This document shows, piece by piece, positions 1-11,587 of a stretch of 64,000 nucleotides of DNA (the stretch's first letter is position 1; each line of letters opens with the position of its first letter). The position numbers and the translations under genes are program-made. Under the pieces are notes generated by a model, which worked only from the letters and a program-made list of their open reading frames with translations, did not search any database and had not been told where the DNA came from. The DNA is from Comamonas denitrificans (GTDB taxonomy: Bacteria > Pseudomonadota > Gammaproteobacteria > Burkholderiales > Burkholderiaceae_C): contig NZ_JAFNME010000003.1 of the NCBI RefSeq assembly GCF_017368815.1, forward strand, positions 1-64,000, written 5' to 3'.

Positions 1-168
1 TTGTACAACCACCAACTGCCCCAGTCAGCATTGCACAGCAAAACACCTATGCAGGCCATGAAACAGTGGCATCAAACTCACCCTGAGTTGTTCAATAAGC
101 GACCATATGATCGTCCGGGATGCAACACCTATTCGGCAGTGAACATACACAGGGCGATTTTCTTTTAG
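1..168 (+). pseudogene. C-terminal remnant of an IS transposase running into the CRISPR array
   Basis: Frame 1 is open from the window edge and reads NHQLPQSALHSKTPMQAMKQ, then a WH..HPELFNKRPYDRPGCNT tail. This is typical of the C-terminus of rve-type integrases of the IS481/IS3 group (family placement from memory). Such proteins normally stop right after the PGC(D/N)T tail. Here the frame continues through the last CRISPR repeat and ends at TAG 166-168 inside spacer 43. The natural stop and the IS end are therefore missing, so the transposon end and the array were joined by a deletion or one-ended event. The N-terminal part lies outside the window. Confidence 0.7.
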
Positions 169-2728
169 CTGCTGCTTTTCTGAGCTGCCTATTCGGCAGT
201 GAACAGCGGGGGGCGACGGCTCCCCATTTTTTTAGGGTTTCTGAGCTGCCTATTCGGCAGTGAACCTTGAATGACAGTAGGAACACCGCCGGAAAGTTTT
301 CTGAGCTGCCTATTCGGCAGTGAACAGAGGGCACAGCAAGTGCTTACGGCAAAAGCTTTTCTGAGCTGCCTATTCGGCAGTGAACTTTGAGCGCCGCGCC
401 ACCGACACGGGCGAGCTTTTCTGAGCTGCCTATTCGGCAGTGAACCCCTGCCGGTGTTCGATCAGCAAAGCTGGGACTTTCTGAGCTGCCTATTCGGCAG
501 TGAACGCTGCCCGGCAGGCACGGGCTGTTTTTTTTCATTTCTGAGCTGCCTATTCGGCAGTGAACACGATGCCAGCACCACTGGCAGAGATCATCAATTT
601 CTGAGCTGCCTATTCGGCAGTGAACGTCAAACGCCCCGTGCCCCTGCATCTACAGCTTTTCTGAGCTGCCTATTCGGCAGTGAACTGGGACAAAAGCATT
701 TACAAGACCGTCAAATATTTTCTGAGCTGCCTATTCGGCAGTGAACCTTGAATGACAGTAGGAACGCCACCAGAAAGTTTTCTGAGCTGCCTATTCGGCA
801 GTGAACTTTATAAAACAACGGTTTGCGCCGTTGTTTTTTTTCTGAGCTGCCTATTCGGCAGTGAACAAGTCGGAAGGAGGCTGGACGAGCCGCGCAGGTT
901 TCTGAGCTGCCTATTCGGCAGTGAACATCATCAGCCAAAAACAGAAAATAAACCTGATTTTCTGAGCTGCCTATTCGGCAGTGAACTACGGGTTTACCCT
1001 CGGTCTTTGGGCTTTCGGTTTCTGAGCTGCCTATTCGGCAGTGAACCCCAGGCGTTCACCGTCGGCACTGCCGCATCTTTTCTGAGCTGCCTATTCGGCA
1101 GTGAACCCTGGCCCCGAAGGGTATGAGCACCCCGCAGATTTCTGAGCTGCCTATTCGGCAGTGAACAGCTGCTCAAAGCGCGTAGGGTGGCCGCCGGGTT
1201 TCTGAGCTGCCTATTCGGCAGTGAACTCACCCAAACGGGCTGACCATCTTCAGGGTCTTTTCTGAGCTGCCTATTCGGCAGTGAACGAGTTTGTTTTCTT
1301 CCAGGTACTGAAAGGCAATTTCTGAGCTGCCTATTCGGCAGTGAACTTCAGCCTTGTTTATTCTTTAACTCCTGATTTTTTCTGAGCTGCCTATTCGGCA
1401 GTGAACTCATGGTCGGCAAAAGTGCGCCAGCTTTTGGCTTTCTGAGCTGCCTATTCGGCAGTGAACGTATCCGGTTTTTTGCTGACCAAAAAGCTGCGTT
1501 TCTGAGCTGCCTATTCGGCAGTGAACACCTGCACGCAGCCTACCTGGAGGCGCGTAAATTTCTGAGCTGCCTATTCGGCAGTGAACTCCGCGCTGCCATG
1601 GGTGATATGCAGTCTTTGTTTCTGAGCTGCCTATTCGGCAGTGAACTCGCGCTAGATCAACTCGCCAACACCTTGATCTTTCTGAGCTGCCTATTCGGCA
1701 GTGAACTCGGACCGATAGCGCTTTCCTTTACGCGCCTCCTTTCTGAGCTGCCTATTCGGCAGTGAACCCCGCCTGCGATCCCGCTGCAGCGCAGCTGCTT
1801 TTCTGAGCTGCCTATTCGGCAGTGAACATTTCAGAGGGAAGGCTGTTATAACTGGTTTGGTTTCTGAGCTGCCTATTCGGCAGTGAACACACCACGCCCA
1901 TGTCCACCGAATACCACCACTTTCTGAGCTGCCTATTCGGCAGTGAACCTTGCGATGCAATCGCACTAATCAGAGGCTGTTTTCTGAGCTGCCTATTCGG
2001 CAGTGAACGAAAGGCTGGGGCCTGCGGCGCTGCTATATATTTTCTGAGCTGCCTATTCGGCAGTGAACGATTTCTTCGATCATTCGATTGCAATCCTAAA
2101 TTTCTGAGCTGCCTATTCGGCAGTGAACAAGGTGCGCATCCCCGTCGGCGCTTTCGTGGCTTTCTGAGCTGCCTATTCGGCAGTGAACGGCGGCATTTAG
2201 GGCTTTAGCCCTGTTGGCATTTTCTGAGCTGCCTATTCGGCAGTGAACAACCCCCGTGGAATTTTTCAATTCCTGGGGTATTTCTGAGCTGCCTATTCGG
2301 CAGTGAACAATCTGACGATTTACAAACCCTCCCCCCTCCATTTCTGAGCTGCCTATTCGGCAGTGAACCATCGCGCAGGTCAATGCCATGTTTGAAGCTG
2401 TTTCTGAGCTGCCTATTCGGCAGTGAACGCAATGTGTCCCACGCTCTTGGCGATGTACTTTTTCTGAGCTGCCTATTCGGCAGTGAACGCCGCCCACCGC
2501 GTGCCGCCCGAGCTGATTGCTTTCTGAGCTGCCTATTCGGCAGTGAACCGCAACGAGATTCAGCCCCTGCAAACGCACCTTTTCTGAGCTGCCTATTCGG
2601 CAGTGAACCTTTGCTTTCTAATCTCGATAGCGCAATCTCTTTTCTGAGCTGCCTATTCGGCAGTGAACTGTAAACAAAGCGGGGAACCCGCGCCCACCAT
2701 TTTCTGAGCTGCCTATTCGGCAGTGAAC
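117..2728 (-). CRISPR. Type I-F CRISPR array, 44 repeats and 43 spacers
   Basis: The 28-bp repeat reads, on the minus strand, GTTCACTGCCGAATAGGCAG followed by CTCAGAAA. This is the I-F consensus: stem CTGCC/GGCAG, pentaloop GAATA, 8-nt handle CTCAGAAA. The period is 60 bp. Spacers are 32 nt except four of 33 nt (205-237, 686-718, 1707-1739, 1828-1860). Repeat orientation and the adjacent AT-rich leader put transcription on the minus strand, so spacer 1 is 2669-2700 and spacer 43 is 145-176. All repeats from 177 rightward look identical. The leader-distal repeat (117-144) keeps only its last 17 plus-strand bases (128-144); the rest is transposase sequence. Spacers 33 and 41 are near-duplicates. 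Confidence 0.98.
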
Positions 2729-2858: not shown

Positions 2859-3434
2859 TCAAAACCAGGGGATGCTGGCGTGGGGGCCTAGGCCGTAGGT
2901 GTTGAAGTGCCCCACCACGGCGGTGGCCAGCTGGGGGCCGTGGGCGATGAACAGGCAAAACGGTTGGCCGGTGCTGCTGCTGCGCAGGTGGGCGTAGGGC
3001 AGGTCGGGGCGGCGTTCCACGCTGTCGGGGATGGCTGCCTGGGCCTGCGCAGCGGTTTCGCCCTTGCGCTGCATACGACGGCGGCGCAGGCGTTCGGCAT
3101 TGGTTTTGAACTGGCGGCGCAGCACCAGGCGGTGCGGCGCGTTGGGCGGTGCGGCGGCCAGCAGCGTGAGCACCACATGGTCGCGCATGCCGCGCAGCCA
3201 GTCTTGTGCCATCAGTGCCTCCAAGGCGTGCTGGGGGCCGTGCAGCCGCAGCACGCTGCCCAAGGTGCGTTTAGACAGGGGCGCATTCACATGCTGCGGA
3301 AAGCTGGTGCCAATGTCGCCCGCGCCGTGCTGCACCAGCGCCCGGTGCAGCTTGGCCAGCAGCGCGCCCAGCAGGTGGGCGTGGCTGAACTCGGGGTCGG
3401 GCAGCAGGGTGATGTCGATGTAGTGCGTGGTCAT
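2859..3434 (-). CDS. csy4: Cas6f/Csy4, type I-F crRNA endonuclease
   Basis: 191 aa. It cuts pre-crRNA 3' of the repeat stem-loop and stays bound to the hairpin in the Csy complex. The N-terminus (HYIDITLLPDPEF) and C-terminus (LPYAHLRSSSTGQPF, GL..HASIPWF) match Pseudomonas Csy4. H30 sits where the catalytic His29 is expected, in KLHRALV, and the Ser of the LRSxSTGQ block is kept. An arginine-rich helix (RLRRRRMQRKGE) fits the major-groove-binding helix. The start at 3434 was chosen over an upstream GTG-type extension because MTTHYID aligns with the family start and a GAGG motif lies upstream. It begins 13 bp after csy3 and is the last gene before the leader. Confidence 0.96.
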   Translation of the reverse strand: MTTHYIDITLLPDPEFSHAHLLGALLAKLHRALVQHGAGDIGTSFPQHVNAPLSKRTLGSVLRLHGPQHALEALMAQDWLRGMRDHVVLTLLAAAPPNAPHRLVLRRQFKTNAERLRRRRMQRKGETAAQAQAAIPDSVERRPDLPYAHLRSSSTGQPFCLFIAHGPQLATAVVGHFNTYGLGPHASIPWF

Positions 3435-3447
3435 AGTGCCTCGCGCG

Positions 3448-4473
3448 TTAGCTGGCATCGCCAAACACACCGCCACGGATGAGCACGGCCATCACAAAGT
3501 GCTGCTGCTCCACGGGCGGCACCTGGTCTTTCAGCAGCCAGTGGTCCAACAGGGTGTAGAAGTCCTGCTTTTGCTTTGGCTGGCGGTAGGCCTTGCCTTG
3601 GGTGGTGACGGAGCCGTAGGGCTCCACGGCGATGGGGCCGAGCTCCTCGGCACCTTCGTACCAGGTGTCGATGGTGCGAATGGCGTTGCCGATTTTTTGC
3701 GAGTGGATGGCTGCCACGCCGTCCACGCTGTACAGCGTTTTGCTTTTGCCTGCGCTGGCTTTGTCCAGAATCAGCTCTTGCGATGGGAAGACTTCTTGCC
3801 CCGCACCTTGGCGCACTAAGGCCGTCACCCGCAGCAGCACATGCTGCGTTCCCGCCAGCCCATCCGCAATGGTTTGGCCGAGTTCTGTCAAGCCTTCTGC
3901 TTCATGATTGATAGCTGCTAGCGCTCGTGTATTCAGGGCTAGAGCGTTAAAAGACCATGTTTTTTTGGCCTGTCCGTTTTGCATGTGCTCCACGGTGACT
4001 TCTACCTGTTCGGCACCCATGCGGTTGCGCCACAGAAAGCGGCCATTGGCCAGGTTGGCGGCGTAGCGCTGCGCTAGCTCGCCAAAGCCATGCTGCTGCA
4101 CATAGCCCTGCACAGTGGCCAGCAGCTTGGCCCGGTAGGCCGCACTGTTGCAGGCCGAGGGCGTGCCCGCACCGCCCAGCACGCGCAGGGTGAATTGCAC
4201 CTTGAGCGTGTCGGCCTCGGCGGGCAGGGCGGCCACGTCCACCGTTTGCAGGTTGGGGTTTTCGATGGCGGCATCCAGCTTGGCCGGGTCTTGGTCTTTG
4301 GCTTTGAGGCGGTTGCTGATGGTGCCGCGCACAGATTTCTCACGGACAACCACGGGCTGCCATGCGTGCGAGTTGGCGCGGTCGTCCCAGCGGCCTGCGT
4401 GGAATACGGCGTCGGAGGGGTCCAGCTTGCGTTCAAAAGCCAGGACGGATGCGGTAGTGAGTTTGTCGGTCAT
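3448..4473 (-). CDS. csy3: Cas7f/Csy3, backbone subunit of the Csy complex
   Basis: 341 aa, the family's usual length (about 342). Six copies normally form the helical backbone that holds the crRNA spacer. The N-terminus ([20 protein letters not shown]) and the [10 protein letters not shown] block are characteristic of Csy3. A copy of the dispersed AATAGCTG-type repeat (3910-3946) lies inside the gene in frame, encoding part of the [16 protein letters not shown] stretch, so this segment is probably an insertion tolerated in a surface loop. Fifty bp separate it from csy2; GGAAAG upstream may serve as ribosome-binding site. Confidence 0.96.
3910..3946 (+). repeat. Dispersed AATAGCTG box-hairpin repeat, copy A (inside csy3)
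   Basis: Box GATAGCTGCTAGCGCTCG at 3910-3927. An inverted repeat CGCTC (3922-3926)/GAGCG (3942-3946) forms the hairpin part. The element lies in frame within csy3. Confidence 0.7.
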
Positions 4474-4523: not shown

Positions 4524-5600
4524 TCAGGTGTAGGCATAGGCTTCATCGTCGTCCCATGCGTCTTGCGTGTCCGTGTGGGCAGCGGTGGCGTCGTCCGCTG
4601 GCGGCGGTTGGTAGCCATTGCGGCAGCGGTACAGGCCCAGGGCGTCGTCGGTTTCGGCATGCCACAGCAGCTGGCCCAGGTGCGTCAGGCGGTGCGGGCT
4701 GATCCACTCGCCCAGCGCATAGACCGATTCCACAAAGCGCAGCGGCACGTTGGCATCGCGCGCGTTGCGCACCGTACCGGCTGCGTGTGCTTGGGGCGTG
4801 AGTGCGGCATAGCCCACGGGGATGGGCACGATCCAGCCGCTGCCTTTGCGGCGCTGTGGGTCGGCCCACTGCACCTGCCCGTCGGGCACAGGCGCTGCGC
4901 CTTCAGGCAGCACCGGCGCGTAATTGAAGCGCGCCGCGTGCAGCCAGGCGTCCAGCAGCGTGGCGGTGGGTTGAGTTGTGAGCAGGTCTTGCAGGCGCTC
5001 GGCCAGCAGGTCATCACGCCCCACCAAGGCAAAGCCCGGCAGCCACTGCCGCCGCCATTGGCGGAATGCCTTCTCTGCTGCCACGGGGTCTTCGGGCACG
5101 ATGGCTATCCAGGGGCGCACGCGTTTGCCGGGCACAGGGCGTGATGGCAGCACACTGCCGCCCGCCACGCGCATACCCTCCAGGATGTGACCGGCCTGCG
5201 CTGCCCAGTCGTCCAGCTGCGCCTGGTTGCCTTGCACCAGCGCCGCCGGGGTGCCGGGCGTGCGCTTTTCTGACACGGCCAGCACCAGCGTGAGCTGCAG
5301 GTGCATGCGGCCTTCTTCCACGATGGCAGCGGTGCTGCCGTCTTTGCCGACTGGGTTGCGCGTCAGGTTGAAGTTGCGCACATAGCCTTGCGTGACCTGC
5401 TCTTGGTGGTGGTGGCACACCACGCCCACGCCGTGCAGCTGCAGCGGCACACCGGCTTGGGCCAGCTTGCGCTCTAGCGCCCACATCACGCCGGTAAAGG
5501 CCGTGATGGAGGGGAAGCTGTGCGTCAGCGGGCTGGCAATGGCATTGGCGTTTTGAATGCGCAGGTGGGGGAGGACGAGGATGGCTTGGGCTTGCGTCAT
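4524..5600 (-). CDS. csy2: Cas5f/Csy2, crRNA 5'-handle-binding subunit
   Basis: 358 aa. The start at 5600 overlaps the csy1 stop as ATGA, and the protein opens [20 protein letters not shown]. The [21 protein letters not shown] block is the Csy2 signature. With Csy1 it forms the tail that holds the 8-nt handle and reads the PAM. The longer open frame upstream of 5600 is only a shadow over csy1. It is about 30 residues longer than Pseudomonas Csy2, mostly because of an acidic C-terminal tail ([16 protein letters not shown]). Confidence 0.95.
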
Positions 5601-6964
5601 GGTGTGGCCTCCGTGGCGGTGTCGTTCAGCCGCTGGCGCAGTGCGCGCAGTTGCTGTTGAAAGCCGTCCTCGTCGGTCAGCAGCTCTTTTTGCCAGGCGT
5701 GCGCTTCGGCATCGCCCAGCGGCAGCTTGCCGCGCAGTTGCGCGTTGAGCCAGTTGGCAAAGCGCTGGCCTACGGCGGCAGGCCAGTCCATCTGCAGCCA
5801 CTCGCGGGCAAATTCGGCTTCGTCAGGCTGTTCGGCACGCAGCGGGTCCAGCCACAGTTGTTCGCTGCGGTGCAGATCGGCAAAGCGCTCATCATCCCGG
5901 CTCCAGCCCGGTGGCAGGAGCTGTTGCAACTCAGCTGCCAGCGACACCAACTCGTCCACCAGTGTGTCGAGCAAGGCCTCGCGCCGTTCACGGGTGGCCA
6001 GATTGGCGTCGGGGTTGGACTCCAAAAACACCCGCAGTGTCCGCACGGTGCGGCGCACCTCAGGCCGGGCGATAAACAATCGGTCGAACACGGAAGCCGC
6101 GTGCACCGGCAACCGTACCGCGCTGGTCCGCCACTTTGGCGGTAGCGACGACAGCAGGTAGTTCACCCCCCGCCGTTCGCTGTTGAGCTGGCTGATGTTC
6201 TGCGGTTTGGTACCGCCCATGTTCTGCACCGCCAAGCCGGGGTAGTCGTGGAACACGCCGTCATGCATCCTGCGCTCGCGCCGCGCCTGGCGGGCAGCCT
6301 TGTTAGCTTCGCCAAAGCGGTCTTCCTGCACCTGGGCGTGCACCGCATGGGCCAGCGAGGTGGCGTACAGCGGGGCCAGCAGGGTGTAGTGGGCATCGTC
6401 GCAGGCATCGCTGCCCGTGAGCCAGTACAGCTGCTTGGCCAGGGTGTGGCTGCTGGGGCCTTCAGCGCGGGGTTGGGTGAGCGACACCAAGGCATCGCGC
6501 AGCGCCTGGGCTTGTTGCGGGTCGGGGTGCAGGGCGGCCAGGGCATCGGCATCGTGTACCAGCAGGGCGGTGAGCAGGCTGCGCCCGTGTACTTCGAGCT
6601 TGAGCAGCTTGTACACATCCAGCGCTGCCGCATTGCCCACCACATCGCCCACAAAGCGCTCGCCCAGTGCGTGGCTGCCCAGCTCGGCCAGCGCGGGCAG
6701 GGTGCTGGGTTCTACGTATAGGCTGGTGCCGCGTGCATCGGGGTGGATGGGTTTGAGGGCGTGGGTGACGGCCTGGATTTGCTGCACGCGCCGTGCCGCA
6801 TCTTCTAGCCAGGCGGAGGGCTGATGCTGCGCCAGCATCTCCTGGCGTTTGTCGTTTTCTTCGCCTTTCAGCTTGTCAAGTTTGGCGTGCAATCTCTCTT
6901 GTAAGAAGGCTGCAATCGCCTCGCGATAGCTGGCGTGATCCGCTGGTGGTGCTTCATTTTTCAC
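5597..6964 (-). CDS. csy1: Cas8f/Csy1, large subunit and PAM recognition
   Basis: 455 aa, starting at GTG 6964-6962 with GAGGG a few bases upstream. The N-terminal helical region (SYREAIAAFLQERLHAKLDKL) is followed by blocks typical of Csy1: SLYVEPSTLPALAELGSHAL, VQNMGGTKPQNISQLNSERRG and LLSSLPPKW. In the family this subunit binds the crRNA handle with Csy2 and recognises the CC PAM. It starts a separate translational block (csy1-csy2 overlap by 4 bp) after a 112-bp gap from cas2-3. That gap holds a mini-CRISPR-like element and a candidate csy1 promoter, so csy1-csy4 may be expressed separately from cas1/cas2-3. Confidence 0.95.
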   Translation of the reverse strand: MKNEAPPADHASYREAIAAFLQERLHAKLDKLKGEENDKRQEMLAQHQPSAWLEDAARRVQQIQAVTHALKPIHPDARGTSLYVEPSTLPALAELGSHALGERFVGDVVGNAAALDVYKLLKLEVHGRSLLTALLVHDADALAALHPDPQQAQALRDALVSLTQPRAEGPSSHTLAKQLYWLTGSDACDDAHYTLLAPLYATSLAHAVHAQVQEDRFGEANKAARQARRERRMHDGVFHDYPGLAVQNMGGTKPQNISQLNSERRGVNYLLSSLPPKWRTSAVRLPVHAASVFDRLFIARPEVRRTVRTLRVFLESNPDANLATRERREALLDTLVDELVSLAAELQQLLPPGWSRDDERFADLHRSEQLWLDPLRAEQPDEAEFAREWLQMDWPAAVGQRFANWLNAQLRGKLPLGDAEAHAWQKELLTDEDGFQQQLRALRQRLNDTATEATP

Positions 6965-6997
6965 TCGACCCTCACTCCTGGTAGCTAAAATGAATAG

Positions 6998-7016
6998 CCA
7001 TCATATGTGAATATCT
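6998..7016. promoter_or_regulatory. CC-flanked pseudo-spacer target over the csy1 promoter
   Basis: The plus strand reads CC (6998-6999) followed by ATCATATGTGAATATCT (7000-7016). The 17 bases match the pseudo-spacer at 7038-7054 at 15 positions; the differences are at guide positions 6 and 12, and position 18 (7017) also differs. CC is the I-F PAM and is on the correct side. On the minus strand the seed part (7005-7000) reads TATGAT, a 5/6 match to a -10 box. That would place a start site near 6993 and a leader of about 30 nt before the csy1 GTG. The -35 region is weak, as expected for a controlled promoter. Confidence 0.7.
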
Positions 7017-7083
7017 GCAGAAAACGCAGCTTAGAAAATCATCTGTGAGTATCTTTTGATCTGCCGCACAGGCAGCTCAGGCT
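7010..7083 (+). ncRNA. Degenerate mini-CRISPR: CreA/creR-like cas-regulating guide RNA
   Basis: Two degenerate copies of this locus's own repeat lie on the plus strand, opposite to the cas genes. Pseudo-repeat 1 (7010-7037) matches 20/28 positions, with stem CTGC/GCAG and an intact-looking handle CTTAGAAA (7030-7037). Pseudo-repeat 2 (7056-7083) has CTGCCGCACAGGCAGCTCAG at 7061-7080, 18/20 identical to the repeat core. It keeps the CTGCC/GGCAG stem and the G and A at the ends of the pentaloop, so Csy4 should still bind it. Between them is an 18-nt pseudo-spacer (7038-7055). This is the layout of CreA RNA antitoxins and creR RNAs known from other type I systems. A candidate -10 (TAAAAT, 6986-6991) precedes it. 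Its 3' end overlaps the cas2-3 stop codon. Confidence 0.8.
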
Positions 7084-10000
7084 TTCTTGCTAAAGCCCAA
7101 ACGCTCATCCCACCACCAGCCCGCCTGCGATTCAGGCAGGCTGGCGGTGGCATAGCGCTTTGCACATTGCTCCAGCGACAAGCCCTGCGCATCTGCCAGT
7201 GCAGCCAGTTCCTCCATCAAGCCCACCTGCGGCCAGGGCGATACGCTGGGTGATGCCAGCTGCGCTGCGGGCACGGGGTGGCACAGGCTTTGGTGGATGG
7301 GCACATAAACCTTTTCGTAGCGGCGCTCCCCGTCTTGCACGCGGTGCAGTAACAGCATTTCTTCCTCTTCGTCTGGCAGCAGGGCCACGTCGTCGCGTTT
7401 TTGGTCGTCCTGGCGGAACCGCTGGAACTGCGGCAGCAGGCCGGTCAGCCACAAGGATCGGGGCGTGTCGGGCTGGGGCTCGTGCCACTGCAGGCAGGCC
7501 GCATGGGTGGGCGTTGCGGTGCCTGGGGGCTTGGGCAGCAGGCTGTCGTGCATGCGGGCGTGTTCCAGGTCTGTCCAGCGGCGGTGGGGCAGCAGCTTGT
7601 TGTCGGCTGGCAGGGCAACGCGTGGCTGTGCGTCTACCGCCCAGGCTGCGTTTATGCCGATCTCTCGCGCCAAAAGGTCGTGCAAATAGTGCGACTTGAG
7701 CTGAAAGGGTGCGTGTGCGGTTTCAAATCCCGGCTTTTCGTACGCAGGCTGACCGGGTGTTTTGAAATGCCGCAGGTTGCTGTCCAGCACCACCATGTTC
7801 ACCCCGCCCACGGCCCCGCTCCGGTGCCGCCGCACGCGCCCGGCCAGCTGGATGAGCGAGCGCATGGACGAGGGCTCGACCACCGCCCAGTCGTAGTCGT
7901 GGTCGCGCCCCACTTCCGTGACGGGGCTGCCCAGCACGATGAACAGGTGGTGCGGCTCGGGGTGGGTGTCGATGAGGGCACGCAGGGCGGGGCGCTGTAG
8001 TGCGGGGTCGTGGTCGTTTTGGGCACCCCGGCGGTTGAGCAAGGTGTCCAGCTGCTGCTCGATGGCCGAGCGCAGCAGCAGCGGGAACTGCGAGTGGTAC
8101 ACGCACAGGTGAACGCGCACGTCGGGGGCGGGAGCGCCCAGTGCATACATGGCCAGTGCCACGTCGTACAGCGGCGCGATGTTGGCCATGCGAATGAGGC
8201 CTAGGCTCACGCACTTGCCACTGGTGGCGTCTAGGCTGTGGTTGTGGGGCCGTTGGTGCAGCTCCCATGCTTGCGCCAGCACCAGGCGGGCAAAGTCCTT
8301 GCGGCGCTCGGCTTCGTCCAAGCTGCTCCAGGTATCGGGCAAAGGCGCAATCTGCGCCAAGCGCCGCACCTCGGCCTGCTGCAGCTTGGCAACGCGCTTG
8401 CGCACGTACTGGCTGTGCGCCTCGCGGAAGGCGGGCCCGTCCGCGCAGTCTTGCGGGGTCTGGTGGAACTCGTCGATCCACAGGCAGCAGGGGTTCACTG
8501 GCTCGCTGGGCTGCTCGCTGCGGTGCTGCTGGTACACGGCACGCCCGGCGCGGTAGGCCAAAAATAGTCCTTCCACCAGCGCAGGGGCCAGCGTGGCCGA
8601 GGACAACAGCACGCGGCTGCCCAGCAGGCCTGCCCAATGCACCAGCCGGGTGAGGGCGGGCAGGTCGGCCATGTCAAAGTCGTCGGGCTCGTCCAGCACC
8701 AGATCGCTGGTCAGCAGGCGCAGCATGGGCGCGATCTGGCGGCCACCGCGCAGGCTTTCGGTGGCGGGGGTGAGGTGGTCCACGGTGCAGACCAACAGGG
8801 GCGCGGCAATGAGCGCGCGGGCTTTGGCGTCGTCGGTCAGGCGCTGCAGCAGCGGGTGCTGGTCGTTGCCCTCAAACAGCACGGTGCCTGCTTCGTCCAG
8901 CAGCGCTTGGCTGGAGGCCGAGCCGGTGGCCTGGGCCTGCTGCTCCCAGTAGTCAAACAGCGCCCGGCTGGCCGCACCGCCGACCTGGATGGCCAGTTGC
9001 TCGTCGTTCAGTTGCAGGTCGTGCTGGAACACGCGCCCGGTTTGCAGCGTGAGCGTGCGCAGCCCCATGGCAAAGGCGCAGCGCAGGCCGGTCGCTGGGT
9101 TGGCAAGCGCGTTCATCACCCGGGCGTTGCCCAGCGTCTTGCCGCAGCCGGTAGAGGCCATATTGACGATGAACGCGCCTTGCTGCGCCGCACGGGCGCG
9201 CACGCTGGTGGCCAGCTCGGCGGCCTTGTCTTGCCAGGCAAAGCGCGGGTCGGCGCTGCGTTTTTTGAGGGGCTTGTGGTGCTTGAGTGCGGGCAGGTTG
9301 TGCGTGAGGCTGGGTAGGGAGCGTGCTACCAGCGTGGCGTGGGCCTGCACACCCAGCAGGTGTTCATCTAAGGTTTGGTTAAAAATTGGGCTTTTACCCT
9401 TATGCAGCAAGCGCAAGCAGCTATCTTTTTGGTAGTCATTGCGGCGCGTATTGGCATAGAGTGGGTAGGCCGCGTTGCGGTACGGGGTGCGCTGGGTTTC
9501 ATCGGTGAGGCTGGAATAGTGGTGATCGGCCAGCATCAGGCACAGGCGGGCGAGGTGCATGGCAAAGGGGTCGTGCAGCACCATGCCTTGCCCGGGGGCT
9601 TGCGACAGTGCCAGCAGCTTGCGTGCGTAGCGGGCGGCCTGCTGGCGCCAGGCAGGTTGGGTGACGGGCAGCCCGTGCGGGAAGTGCCAGTGGGCTTGCA
9701 CCGTGGAGGGTTCTGCGCGCTCGCGTGGTTCGTTCCAGTCGGCGCTGATGCGCAGCAGTATGTCGTCCAAGACGTTTGAATTTAGGAAGCGGGGGCGCGC
9801 CCCAAAGCGGTGGTGAATGCGCCTTTCGTCTTCCATGTCATGTGGATCTACATCGTGTGACTTCTCTACTGGCATACAGGGCAGGCGGTGGTGGGTGAAC
9901 ACCAGCCAAGCCACGGCCTGGGCCAGGGGTGGCAGGTGGGCGAAGGGCAAGCGCTGCTGGGCCTGGGGCTCGTCCAGCCCATCGCGCAGCAGCCGCCCGC

Positions 10001-10583
10001 TGGCATGGTCTAGCCACAGCGACTCAAAGGCTTGCGCATCGGTGCTCGGTGCTGCGCAGTCTGCCAGCCGCTGCAGCCAGCCTGCGTCGTCGTCCTGCCC
10101 CACAAACGCCTGGAACAGTCGCACCGATACCCATTCATGGCGGTAGTGGTTGCGCTCGCGCAGTCCTGGGTTCTTGAGCTTGTCTTGGAATGCCTGCGTG
10201 GCTTTGCCCAAGTCGTGCAACAGGGCTGCCAAGGCGGCCAGGGCTGTGATGTGCGGCAGGTGGTGCCAGGCGTTTTCATCACCCGTGCGCAGCACGTTGC
10301 TGGTGGTGGTGTTGGTGGGCACAGCACCCTGGTCGTTGAACTGGCTGGCATCGCCCACCACCCACAGCAGTTCGCTGTGGTCGCGCCCGCGAATCCAGTG
10401 GCAGGCCACGGCGGTGTTTTTGCGCGCCGTCTGGCGCAGCAGCTTGCGCAGGGTGTCCAGCCCCGCCTGGGTGATGGGGGTTTGCCACGTGCGCTCGCCA
10501 CGGCGTTCGGCAAACTGATCAAGGATGCGCCGGGTTTCGGTCAAGGCGCGCTTGGAGCATTGGGAGACAAGCAGTACGTTCAT
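7077..10583 (-). CDS. cas3: Cas2-Cas3 fusion, helicase-nuclease of type I-F
   Basis: 1168 aa. The N-terminal Cas2-like domain (residues 1 to about 95, MNVLLVSQCSKRALTETRRI) joins Cas1 for spacer capture. It is followed by an HD nuclease (LLHDLGK, H123-D124) and an SF2 helicase: Walker A STGCGKT near 476, DEPDD near 630, SSATL near 662, and motif VI QLAGRVRR near 916. It degrades DNA once recruited by the Csy complex. It overlaps cas1 by 4 bp (ATGA at 10583). A dispersed repeat copy lies in frame near residue 390 (9388-9425). All key motifs are intact, so it should be active. Confidence 0.97.
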   Translation of the reverse strand: MNVLLVSQCSKRALTETRRILDQFAERRGERTWQTPITQAGLDTLRKLLRQTARKNTAVACHWIRGRDHSELLWVVGDASQFNDQGAVPTNTTTSNVLRTGDENAWHHLPHITALAALAALLHDLGKATQAFQDKLKNPGLRERNHYRHEWVSVRLFQAFVGQDDDAGWLQRLADCAAPSTDAQAFESLWLDHASGRLLRDGLDEPQAQQRLPFAHLPPLAQAVAWLVFTHHRLPCMPVEKSHDVDPHDMEDERRIHHRFGARPRFLNSNVLDDILLRISADWNEPRERAEPSTVQAHWHFPHGLPVTQPAWRQQAARYARKLLALSQAPGQGMVLHDPFAMHLARLCLMLADHHYSSLTDETQRTPYRNAAYPLYANTRRNDYQKDSCLRLLHKGKSPIFNQTLDEHLLGVQAHATLVARSLPSLTHNLPALKHHKPLKKRSADPRFAWQDKAAELATSVRARAAQQGAFIVNMASTGCGKTLGNARVMNALANPATGLRCAFAMGLRTLTLQTGRVFQHDLQLNDEQLAIQVGGAASRALFDYWEQQAQATGSASSQALLDEAGTVLFEGNDQHPLLQRLTDDAKARALIAAPLLVCTVDHLTPATESLRGGRQIAPMLRLLTSDLVLDEPDDFDMADLPALTRLVHWAGLLGSRVLLSSATLAPALVEGLFLAYRAGRAVYQQHRSEQPSEPVNPCCLWIDEFHQTPQDCADGPAFREAHSQYVRKRVAKLQQAEVRRLAQIAPLPDTWSSLDEAERRKDFARLVLAQAWELHQRPHNHSLDATSGKCVSLGLIRMANIAPLYDVALAMYALGAPAPDVRVHLCVYHSQFPLLLRSAIEQQLDTLLNRRGAQNDHDPALQRPALRALIDTHPEPHHLFIVLGSPVTEVGRDHDYDWAVVEPSSMRSLIQLAGRVRRHRSGAVGGVNMVVLDSNLRHFKTPGQPAYEKPGFETAHAPFQLKSHYLHDLLAREIGINAAWAVDAQPRVALPADNKLLPHRRWTDLEHARMHDSLLPKPPGTATPTHAACLQWHEPQPDTPRSLWLTGLLPQFQRFRQDDQKRDDVALLPDEEEEMLLLHRVQDGERRYEKVYVPIHQSLCHPVPAAQLASPSVSPWPQVGLMEELAALADAQGLSLEQCAKRYATASLPESQAGWWWDERLGFSKKA
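9388..9425 (-). repeat. Dispersed AATAGCTG box-hairpin repeat, copy B (inside cas2-3)
   Basis: The minus strand reads GATAGCTGCTTGCGCTTG (9425-9408), then a GGG/CCC mini-hairpin (9399-9388). It is in frame in cas2-3 and encodes part of CLRLLHKGKSPIFNQ. Confidence 0.7.
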
Positions 10584-11587
10584 GCCGCAGCCCCCTGCCC
10601 AGGCACCGGTACACCTGCCAGGCGCGCGGTGGAGGTGGCAATCTGTTGCAGGGTCTCGATCATGAAATCGAGCGATGCGCTGCGCGTGAGTGCCTCAATG
10701 CACTGGCGGCGAAACTGCTGTTCTTCATCGCCGCGCATGGCCGACAGAAAGGCCTGCGGCAGGATCACGGCATCTTTGACCAGATCAGCCGCATCAAACA
10801 CCAGGCCGCCCCGCCGCGTCTTGCCATGCAGCACGGCCAGTCCGTGGGGCAGTCCCAGTACCCAGGTGGCGGTGGCACCCAGGCCATAGGCTAGGTAGTT
10901 GCCGTGGTCCAAGAAGCGGTTGGCTGCATCGGTGCCCGTGCCGCGTTTGGCGCGGGTGAAGTCCCTGTAACCCACCGCCTCCACAGCAAGTTTGAACAAG
11001 GCTTTGGTCAGTTGGGCTTCATCGGTGAGCAGTGTGGTGACGTCGGGCGCATGGGCGATGCGTTGTGTGAATTGCGCCACCAGGGCTTGCAGGCGCACGG
11101 TATCGGCGGCAAAGCCGGCATCGCGCAGCGCTCGGGTATCCCACGCTGCTTGCAGGCGCTGTAGCCGTGCTGTTTGCAGCTGCTGGGCAGCGTGCAGGCG
11201 CAGTGCATCGTCAAACCAGAACTTCACCCAGGCTTGCAGGTACTCGGTGGGCCGGTATTCGCTCTGCGGCGTGAGCCAGGCCACCTCAACATCCACCTCA
11301 TTGGCACTGAAGAGCGGCGTACCACCGCCACCGCAAAATCCCACCAGCACACCTGCCTTGGCCAGCTCGCGCATGGCAGCCTGGGTGATGGAGGTGCCGG
11401 TGCCCAGCAAAATGCTCGTGGTGTTGGCAATGGGGATGTTCCAGTACAGGCTTTTTTTGCCCGCATCGGTCACGTACTCCACCCGCCCACCGTTGACCAG
11501 TACGCGGCAGTGTTCCAGGTAGTAAATCTGGGCCCGCTTCGAATGGAGGATCGTTTTGAGATCGGTGCTGCGAATTTCCTCTGTCAT
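10580..11587 (-). CDS. cas1: Cas1f integrase
   Basis: 335 aa. It catalyses spacer integration as a complex with the Cas2 domain of Cas2-3. Type I-F features include LKTILHSKRAQIYYLEHCRV at the N-terminus, the LLGTGTSITQAAMREL block, and the C-terminal region with catalytic-type residues (LPHGLAVLHGK, VFDAADLVKD). ATG 11587 has GGAGG nine bases upstream. It starts only 16 bp after the yfcH-like gene, leaving no room for its own promoter between them. It either shares the upstream transcript or uses a promoter inside yfcH. Confidence 0.96.
   Translation of the reverse strand: MTEEIRSTDLKTILHSKRAQIYYLEHCRVLVNGGRVEYVTDAGKKSLYWNIPIANTTSILLGTGTSITQAAMRELAKAGVLVGFCGGGGTPLFSANEVDVEVAWLTPQSEYRPTEYLQAWVKFWFDDALRLHAAQQLQTARLQRLQAAWDTRALRDAGFAADTVRLQALVAQFTQRIAHAPDVTTLLTDEAQLTKALFKLAVEAVGYRDFTRAKRGTGTDAANRFLDHGNYLAYGLGATATWVLGLPHGLAVLHGKTRRGGLVFDAADLVKDAVILPQAFLSAMRGDEEQQFRRQCIEALTRSASLDFMIETLQQIATSTARLAGVPVPGQGAAA

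Follow-up and report, generated by a model that had tools for sequence, protein, structure and literature searches.

The window, by which we mean the whole 64,000-nucleotide stretch of Comamonas denitrificans DNA that was analysed, contains a degenerate mini-CRISPR in the gap between cas2-3 and csy1 of a type I-F locus, and the guide of this element matches a PAM-flanked site just upstream of csy1. We consider it likely that the element specifies a CreR-like guide, with which the Csy complex represses csy1-4. Its transcription, the processing of its RNA, the formation of the complex and the repression are inferred, in the absence of any RNA or expression data; the parts of the element, the match between guide and target, the PAM, the register of the mismatches, the conservation and the covariation can be read from the nucleotide sequences compared here.

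The mini-CRISPR and its target in the cas2-3/csy1 gap

The genes of the locus lie on the minus strand in the order cas1, cas2-3, csy1, csy2, csy3 and csy4, followed by the main array. All six match their profiles above the family cut-offs. The matches are those of cas1 (10580..11587; NCBIfam TIGR03637), cas2-3 (7077..10583, with the stop codon at 7077-7079; TIGR02562), csy2 (4524..5591, start approximate; TIGR02565), csy3 (3448..4473; TIGR02566) and csy4 (Cas6f; 2859..3476; TIGR02563), whose product is expected to cut the hairpins. The first gene of the presumed repressed operon, csy1 (5597..6964), matches NCBIfam TIGR02564 with 389.6 bits, and the array (117..2728, minus strand) has 43 perfect repeats and one 19/28 copy at its low end. 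The gap between the csy1 start (6964) and the cas2-3 stop (7077) is 112 bases long and is fully assigned to the csy1 leader, the target, the two pseudo-repeats and the pseudo-spacer, so that no toxin gene is coupled to the guide.

The mini-CRISPR is oriented opposite to the cas operon and consists of two pseudo-repeats and a pseudo-spacer on the plus strand. Pseudo-repeat 1 (R1, 7010..7037) agrees with the array repeat GTTCACTGCCGAATAGGCAGCTCAGAAA at 20/28 positions; its hairpin, CTGC/GCAG, keeps four of the five stem pairs, the loop-closing pair being broken as A-C, and the 8-nt handle CTTAGAAA (7030-7037), which is kept in relatives, lies at its end. The pseudo-spacer, or guide, occupies the following 18 nt (7038..7055). 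Pseudo-repeat 2 (R2, 7056..7083) agrees with the array repeat at 19/28 positions and at 18/20 over positions 6-25, has an intact CTGCC/GGCAG stem (7061-7075), and overlaps the stop codon of cas2-3. The preliminary description had reported two diverged copies of the I-F repeat (20/28 and, in the core, 18/20), the 18-nt pseudo-spacer, the 8-nt handle in the first copy and the full stem in the second, and each of these was recovered at the positions given here, the repeat copies both by alignment and in comparison with shuffled sequences. No other plus-sense stretch in the entire 64 kb matches the array repeat as well as R1 and R2, the next best being 17/28; the pair score of R1 and R2 is 39, while the sole other pair reaching at least 32 beyond position 2900 scores 33, and none of 3000 dinucleotide shuffles of 6900-7140 (both strands) reached 39 (maximum 34). 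A match to the Rfam family CRISPR-DR4 at 7061-7080 on the plus strand (24.4 bits) stays under the gathering score of 35, and the region, as a single sequence, does not fold better than its shuffles (z 0.41). The features of a canonical array are absent, as the repeats are degenerate (20/28 and 19/28), the spacer is 18 nt instead of 32 nt long, and the strand is opposite to that of the array. From the cutting rule of Csy4 and the positions of the handle and the R2 stem we infer a mature guide RNA of 46 nt (7030..7075, plus strand), which has not been observed.

A phage or plasmid origin of the mini-CRISPR was rejected, since the plasmid search returned no match to it and the 50,697 phage records contain no match to the whole element, only one of 24 nt in one record (E 0.3).

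The CC-flanked target had been missed in the preliminary description. The first 17 nt of the guide match positions 7000..7016 of the plus strand at 15 positions, with mismatches at 6 and 12 only, and CC, the I-F PAM (PMC10097628, in excerpt), directly precedes the match at 6998..6999. Positions 6 and 12 correspond to the bases flipped out of type I R-loops, so that the guide agrees with the target wherever pairing is expected within its first 17 nt (15 positions); in the P. aeruginosa I-F effector, according to the available part of PMC7305327, every sixth base is turned out of the duplex and contributes little to binding. When the flanks were shuffled, none of 20,000 sequences reached 15/17 (maximum 14/17). 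A second genomic target was excluded in so far as a search of the 3.0 Mb assembly, allowing up to 2 mismatches to the guide, yielded no further site flanked by CC.

The target sits 35 nt upstream of csy1, and its first six bases, read on the minus strand as TATGAT (7000..7005), are the best -10-like hexamer within 90 nt upstream of this gene. We regard them as the -10-like box of a predicted csy1 promoter, which has not been mapped and has no consensus -35. As R1 begins only 10 nt after the target start, the promoter of the guide gene is expected to precede the target, and it may be repressed too. Both promoters are guesses, because a scan of 6900-7140 for sigma-70 consensus promoters found none on either strand; a terminator scan likewise found none.

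Occurrence and conservation in other type I-F loci

Csy1 was found in 28 of the 299 genomes of the family (that of the window included), and a profile scan supplied 80 named loci, the best 80 among at least 498 and therefore a selection biased towards close relatives; after the removal of 6 duplicates, the first set comprised 102 non-redundant I-F loci. An element was accepted if two pseudo-repeats started 42-65 nt apart with a pair score of at least 32, and one locus, L070, was dropped by hand before counting. By this measure, the mini-CRISPR is present on the strand opposite to csy1 in 53 of the 102 loci. On the csy1-sense strand L104, itself accepted on the opposite strand, reaches 35 and L073, not accepted, reaches 32; control stretches of equal length (csy1 and downstream sequence) reach at most 31. 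The figure of 53 may be an undercount, since L109 and L066 (31 each) are possible members just below the threshold. The presence of the element is patchy, and about half of the first-set loci are without it.

The two pseudo-repeats are conserved in different parts. Positions 21-28 of R1, i.e. the handle, match the repeat in 40-53 of the 53 loci and its first five bases in only 7-23, while the stem of R2 matches in 50-53 loci and its last seven bases in only 6-21. The kept parts are those required for processing by Csy4, namely the 5' handle from R1 and the 3' hairpin from R2; a division of labour between repeat parts has been discussed for I-B creA (PMC9458426, in excerpt). All five stem pairs of R1, with a flexible loop, can be formed in 46 of the 53 loci, against 226 of 5000 random places. 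For the analysis of covariation we used the 41 copies with a five-base loop and excluded the 12 with other loop lengths or shifted stems. Among the 205 cells of these 41 rows 97.6% are paired and 19 are changed on both sides; none of 500 shuffles matched the covariation score, the number of cells paired or the number of cells changed on both sides, and slid controls gave at most 44.4% paired. Two other measures fall within the shuffles (pairs with a change on both sides, 160/500; pair types, 171/500), the loop-closing pair fails in 4 of the 41 rows, and the percentage paired is raised by the selection of all candidates for likeness to the repeat. Conservation and covariation in related I-F gaps were the checks proposed in the preliminary description, and both came out in its favour: a pseudo-repeat pair with the R1 handle and the R2 stem recurs opposite csy1 in the 53 loci, and the R1 stems covary.

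The guides of the 53 loci were each matched to their own surroundings, on both strands, and the matches were ranked on their total alone. The best self-match is at least 12/17 in 51 loci, with CC in 49 of these 51; position 6 is mismatched 45 times, position 12 38 times and any other position 0-14 times. In L037 and L100 the best self-matches are only 11/17, without and with CC, respectively, and in L013 the best match (13/17) has CA, an equally good match on the other strand having CC. Guides compared with the gaps of other loci, related ones included, mostly give 10-11 matches. Positions 6 and 12 look free, as an unconstrained base is expected to mismatch in about three quarters of cases, and perhaps there is some avoidance of a match at position 6, for which no formal test was made.

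A second set consisted of 49 further loci (29 from a class draw and 20 from an order draw, two of the latter being pieces of one gene). The mini-CRISPR score is at least 32 in 18 of them, including L162, which duplicates L030. All 17 non-duplicate elements have CC, and their guides mismatch 14 times at each of positions 6 and 12 and 0-3 times at any other position. The target lies at most 65 nt from the estimated csy1 start in five loci, L150, L154, L159, L165 and L175. The distances to csy1 were calculated from start codons assigned by a script, and the csy1 frame of L159 contains stop codons.

Several observations may be added on individual elements. The pseudo-spacers of the 53 loci are 26 nt long in 18 cases, 18-21 nt in 16 and 30-32 nt in eight, a series that descends from 32 nt by about six at a time, as if the complex had lost one or two of its Csy3 subunits. 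In L097 and L174 the best CC-flanked target is on the other strand from the guide gene. In L037 the mini-CRISPR (6874-6961) lies about 1.1 kb upstream of csy1, behind a RuvB-like gene and with no adjacent cas2-3 match; we take its 32-nt spacer to resemble the antisense of a tRNA-Ile half, and ARAGORN found no tRNA in this locus.

Layouts, neighbouring genes and probable movement of the element

The distance from the target to csy1 is at most 46 nt in 12 of the 53 loci and 69-102 nt in four; it is greater in 34, of which 32 fall at 221-289 nt, and has no clear value in three. The far group resembles the Acinetobacter I-F creTA in place and spacing, a comparison that involved no toxin test. The near group consists of the window (L002), L012, L041, L077, L004, L033, L034, L060, L007, L040 and L046, together with the less similar L028. 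In the former 11 loci (L041 in, L028 out) the seed hexamer on the csy1 strand is TATGAT, TATCAT, TAGGAT, CATCAT or TATCGT, it is followed by GG (by GA in L041), and in each of the 11 no hexamer in the 90 nt before csy1 has a higher -10 score, with ties in four; the seed hexamer of L028 ranks fifth. We also compared guide and target differences between pairs of near loci, here with L028 in and L041 out and with the reservation that pairs of 11 loci are not independent. Differences at pairing positions occur in both guide and target 316 times, in the target only 10 times and in the guide only 56 times, against 9, 11 and 60 times, respectively, at positions 6 and 12. In these loci, guide and target change together at the positions where they pair.

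A third geometry was noted by eye in L017 and L020, where the end of the target adjoins the promoter-like sequence TTGACA-17-TAGCAT or TTGACG-17-TAGCAT facing csy1 and the -35 rather than the -10 would be crowded.

A DNA similarity search of 399 family genomes gave 11 hits, among which the full relatives are the window's own and one in G283 (87% over 101 bp); the remaining nine gave only weak matches (best E 1.3e-5 to 0.003), and the three of these with listed rows align to the end of R2 and resemble array repeats. The cassette has probably moved between loci, since those of the window and L012 are 87% identical over 101 bp and the corresponding Csy1 proteins only about 55%. The closest relative by Csy1, L003 (86%), has a 45-nt gap and no mini-CRISPR, and a quick tree built from 102 Csy1 rows shows near-layout loci intermingled with far-layout loci among close relatives (e.g. 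L036/L060 and L041/L045). The element can also travel with the csy operon alone, as in L077, where the guide gene precedes csy1-csy2-csy3 (the contig ends there) and 5.5 kb upstream contain neither cas1 nor cas2-3, and it can decay, as in L041, which belongs to the same subgroup by guide sequence and has lost CC and matches at 12/17.

In nine of the 11 near loci (again L041 in, L028 out) a type II toxin-antitoxin pair lies between R2 and the end of cas2-3, in the direction of the guide gene; the window and L077 have none. The pair is HigBA-like in eight (L012, L041, L004, L033, L034, L060, L040 and L046, the toxin of L046 being incomplete) and BrnTA-like in L007. Pfam confirmed HigB in L012 and BrnT in L007, with the partners just below cut-off, and the others were assigned by likeness. 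Five loci of the far layout (L072, L086, L101, L094 and L079) carry other toxin- or abortive-infection-like genes in the same place: Pfam identified a nucleotidyltransferase in L101 and HepT in L086, and those of L072 (a comparable nucleotidyltransferase), L094 (AbiE-like) and L079 (Fic-like) were assigned by eye only.

Proposed autorepression, its rivals and known systems

We propose that the plus strand of the gap is transcribed, that Csy4 would cut after both hairpins to release the 46-nt RNA, and that Csy1-4 would bind it as a short-guide complex capable of opening an R-loop over the -10 region of the putative csy1 promoter, which would block the transcription of csy1-4. Productive cleavage by Cas2-3 would not be expected, because the guide is short and stops pairing with the target at about base 17. 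Ordinary crRNAs or anti-CRISPR proteins would draw complexes away from the guide RNA, so that csy transcription would rise when free effector is scarce, a response that we take from the available excerpts of the CreR reviews (PMC12737573, PMC13131331). It is tempting to go further and to imagine the guide complex on two overlapping divergent promoters, where it would repress its own gene in addition to csy1-4. As relatives have HigBA or BrnTA directly behind the guide gene, the loss of Csy activity would then raise csy, the guide and perhaps the toxin pair together. The cassette would sense inhibition of the effector and be exchanged from one I-F locus to another, and the window would have a reduced form of it that lacks the toxin pair. 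This extension is speculative, and we think it rather unlikely to be correct as a whole.

The preliminary description had called the element a CreA/creR-like guide gene, an assignment that the target and the conservation in relatives now support. CreR fits better than CreA because the target is just upstream of csy1, with no room for a separate toxin gene. Nevertheless, the element could be what is left of a creTA pair after the loss of its toxin, namely a creA guide that once silenced a creT promoter and now lies before csy1 with little or no function. The Acinetobacter I-F creTA occupies the same cas3-csy1 gap (PMC10097628, in excerpt), 34 of the 53 accepted loci have the far, creTA-like spacing, and near layouts are mixed with far ones on the Csy1 tree, all of which speaks for such a history. 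A dead remnant would not be expected to retain all 15 pairing positions, as in the window, or to mirror the changes of its target, and 11 loci share the near layout with the seed placed over a -10-like box; we consider this origin improbable, without dismissing it. Much less credible is the suggestion that the two 17-mers are direct-repeat operators of a transcription factor and the CRISPR likeness coincidental. They are nearly identical, 38 nt apart and in a promoter region, TGTGA resembles half a CRP site, and a paper on CRP in type I-F regulation exists (PMC4499141), but this reading was rejected, since the matched sequence varies freely between loci and it is CC, the 6/12 register and the flanking pseudo-repeats that stay constant. 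The least plausible view, that of chance or of an inert leftover of a stray array insertion, can invoke the degeneracy of both repeats, the unremarkable fold and the absence of the element from about half of the loci, and is contradicted by the two shuffling experiments (0/3000 and 0/20,000) and by both sets of loci, each of which conserves the target with its PAM as well as the orientation and the register.

If autorepression of csy1-4 is confirmed, type I-F would be another subtype that senses its own effector level via a self-directed guide. Type I-F is widely used for work on anti-CRISPRs, and the effects of these proteins on cas expression would need rereading. Such guides are easy to find by a simple positional rule, according to which the target lies between R1 and csy1, is flanked by CC and is mismatched at 6 and 12, and the mismatches tolerated in evolution would constitute a natural record of the base pairs that a Csy R-loop needs in cells.

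Among the known systems, the phage-encoded RNA anti-CRISPRs (Racr) similarly mimic a repeat outside an array, according to what is available of PMC10651486; however, the element of the window is inside a cas operon, has two repeats and a guide, and has neither a whole-element match among the phage records nor any match in a plasmid. In CrePA, a CRISPR-like RNA turns the effector into a transcriptional repressor, but the repressed gene encodes a protein toxin (PMC12737573, in excerpt), of which there is none in the gap of the window. There is no ORF between the target and csy1 that could correspond to a toxin of the CrePA type.

The Acinetobacter I-F CreTA is closer, with two palindromic pseudo-repeats in the same cas3-csy1 gap and a CC-flanked partial target nearby; its creA has a 20-nt pseudo-spacer with mismatches at 6, 11 and 18, as far as the excerpt of PMC10097628 tells. 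There, the gap is about 400 bp long and contains the creT mini-ORF (33 bp for the ORF alone), whose promoter is the one repressed (PMC10097628, same excerpt). In contrast, the gap of the window has 112 bp and the target is followed after 35 nt by csy1 itself, a distance too short for a separate creT toxin gene driven by the targeted promoter, and none was found.

The primary CreR paper reportedly appeared in Cell Host and Microbe in 2023. No I-F CreR was present among the literature matches listed for CreR, CreTA and I-F autoregulation, which did not cover the original CreR paper, so that an I-F case may be described there. Autorepression by CreR is named for I-B, I-E and V-A in the available part of a review of April 2026 (PMC13131331), and for type I and V-A, with the subtypes not given, in that of PMC12737573. 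Guide-based autorepression of cas genes is therefore already known; the I-F case would be new, and its priority is not settled. CreR, in these excerpts, is a crRNA-like RNA partly complementary to the cognate cas promoter with no toxin attached, and the window has the corresponding features, a degenerate mini-CRISPR beside the cas genes and a PAM-flanked partial target upstream of the cas operon. It differs from the described cases in that its subtype is I-F, its guide gene overlaps the predicted csy1 promoter, and R2 extends over the stop codon of cas2-3.
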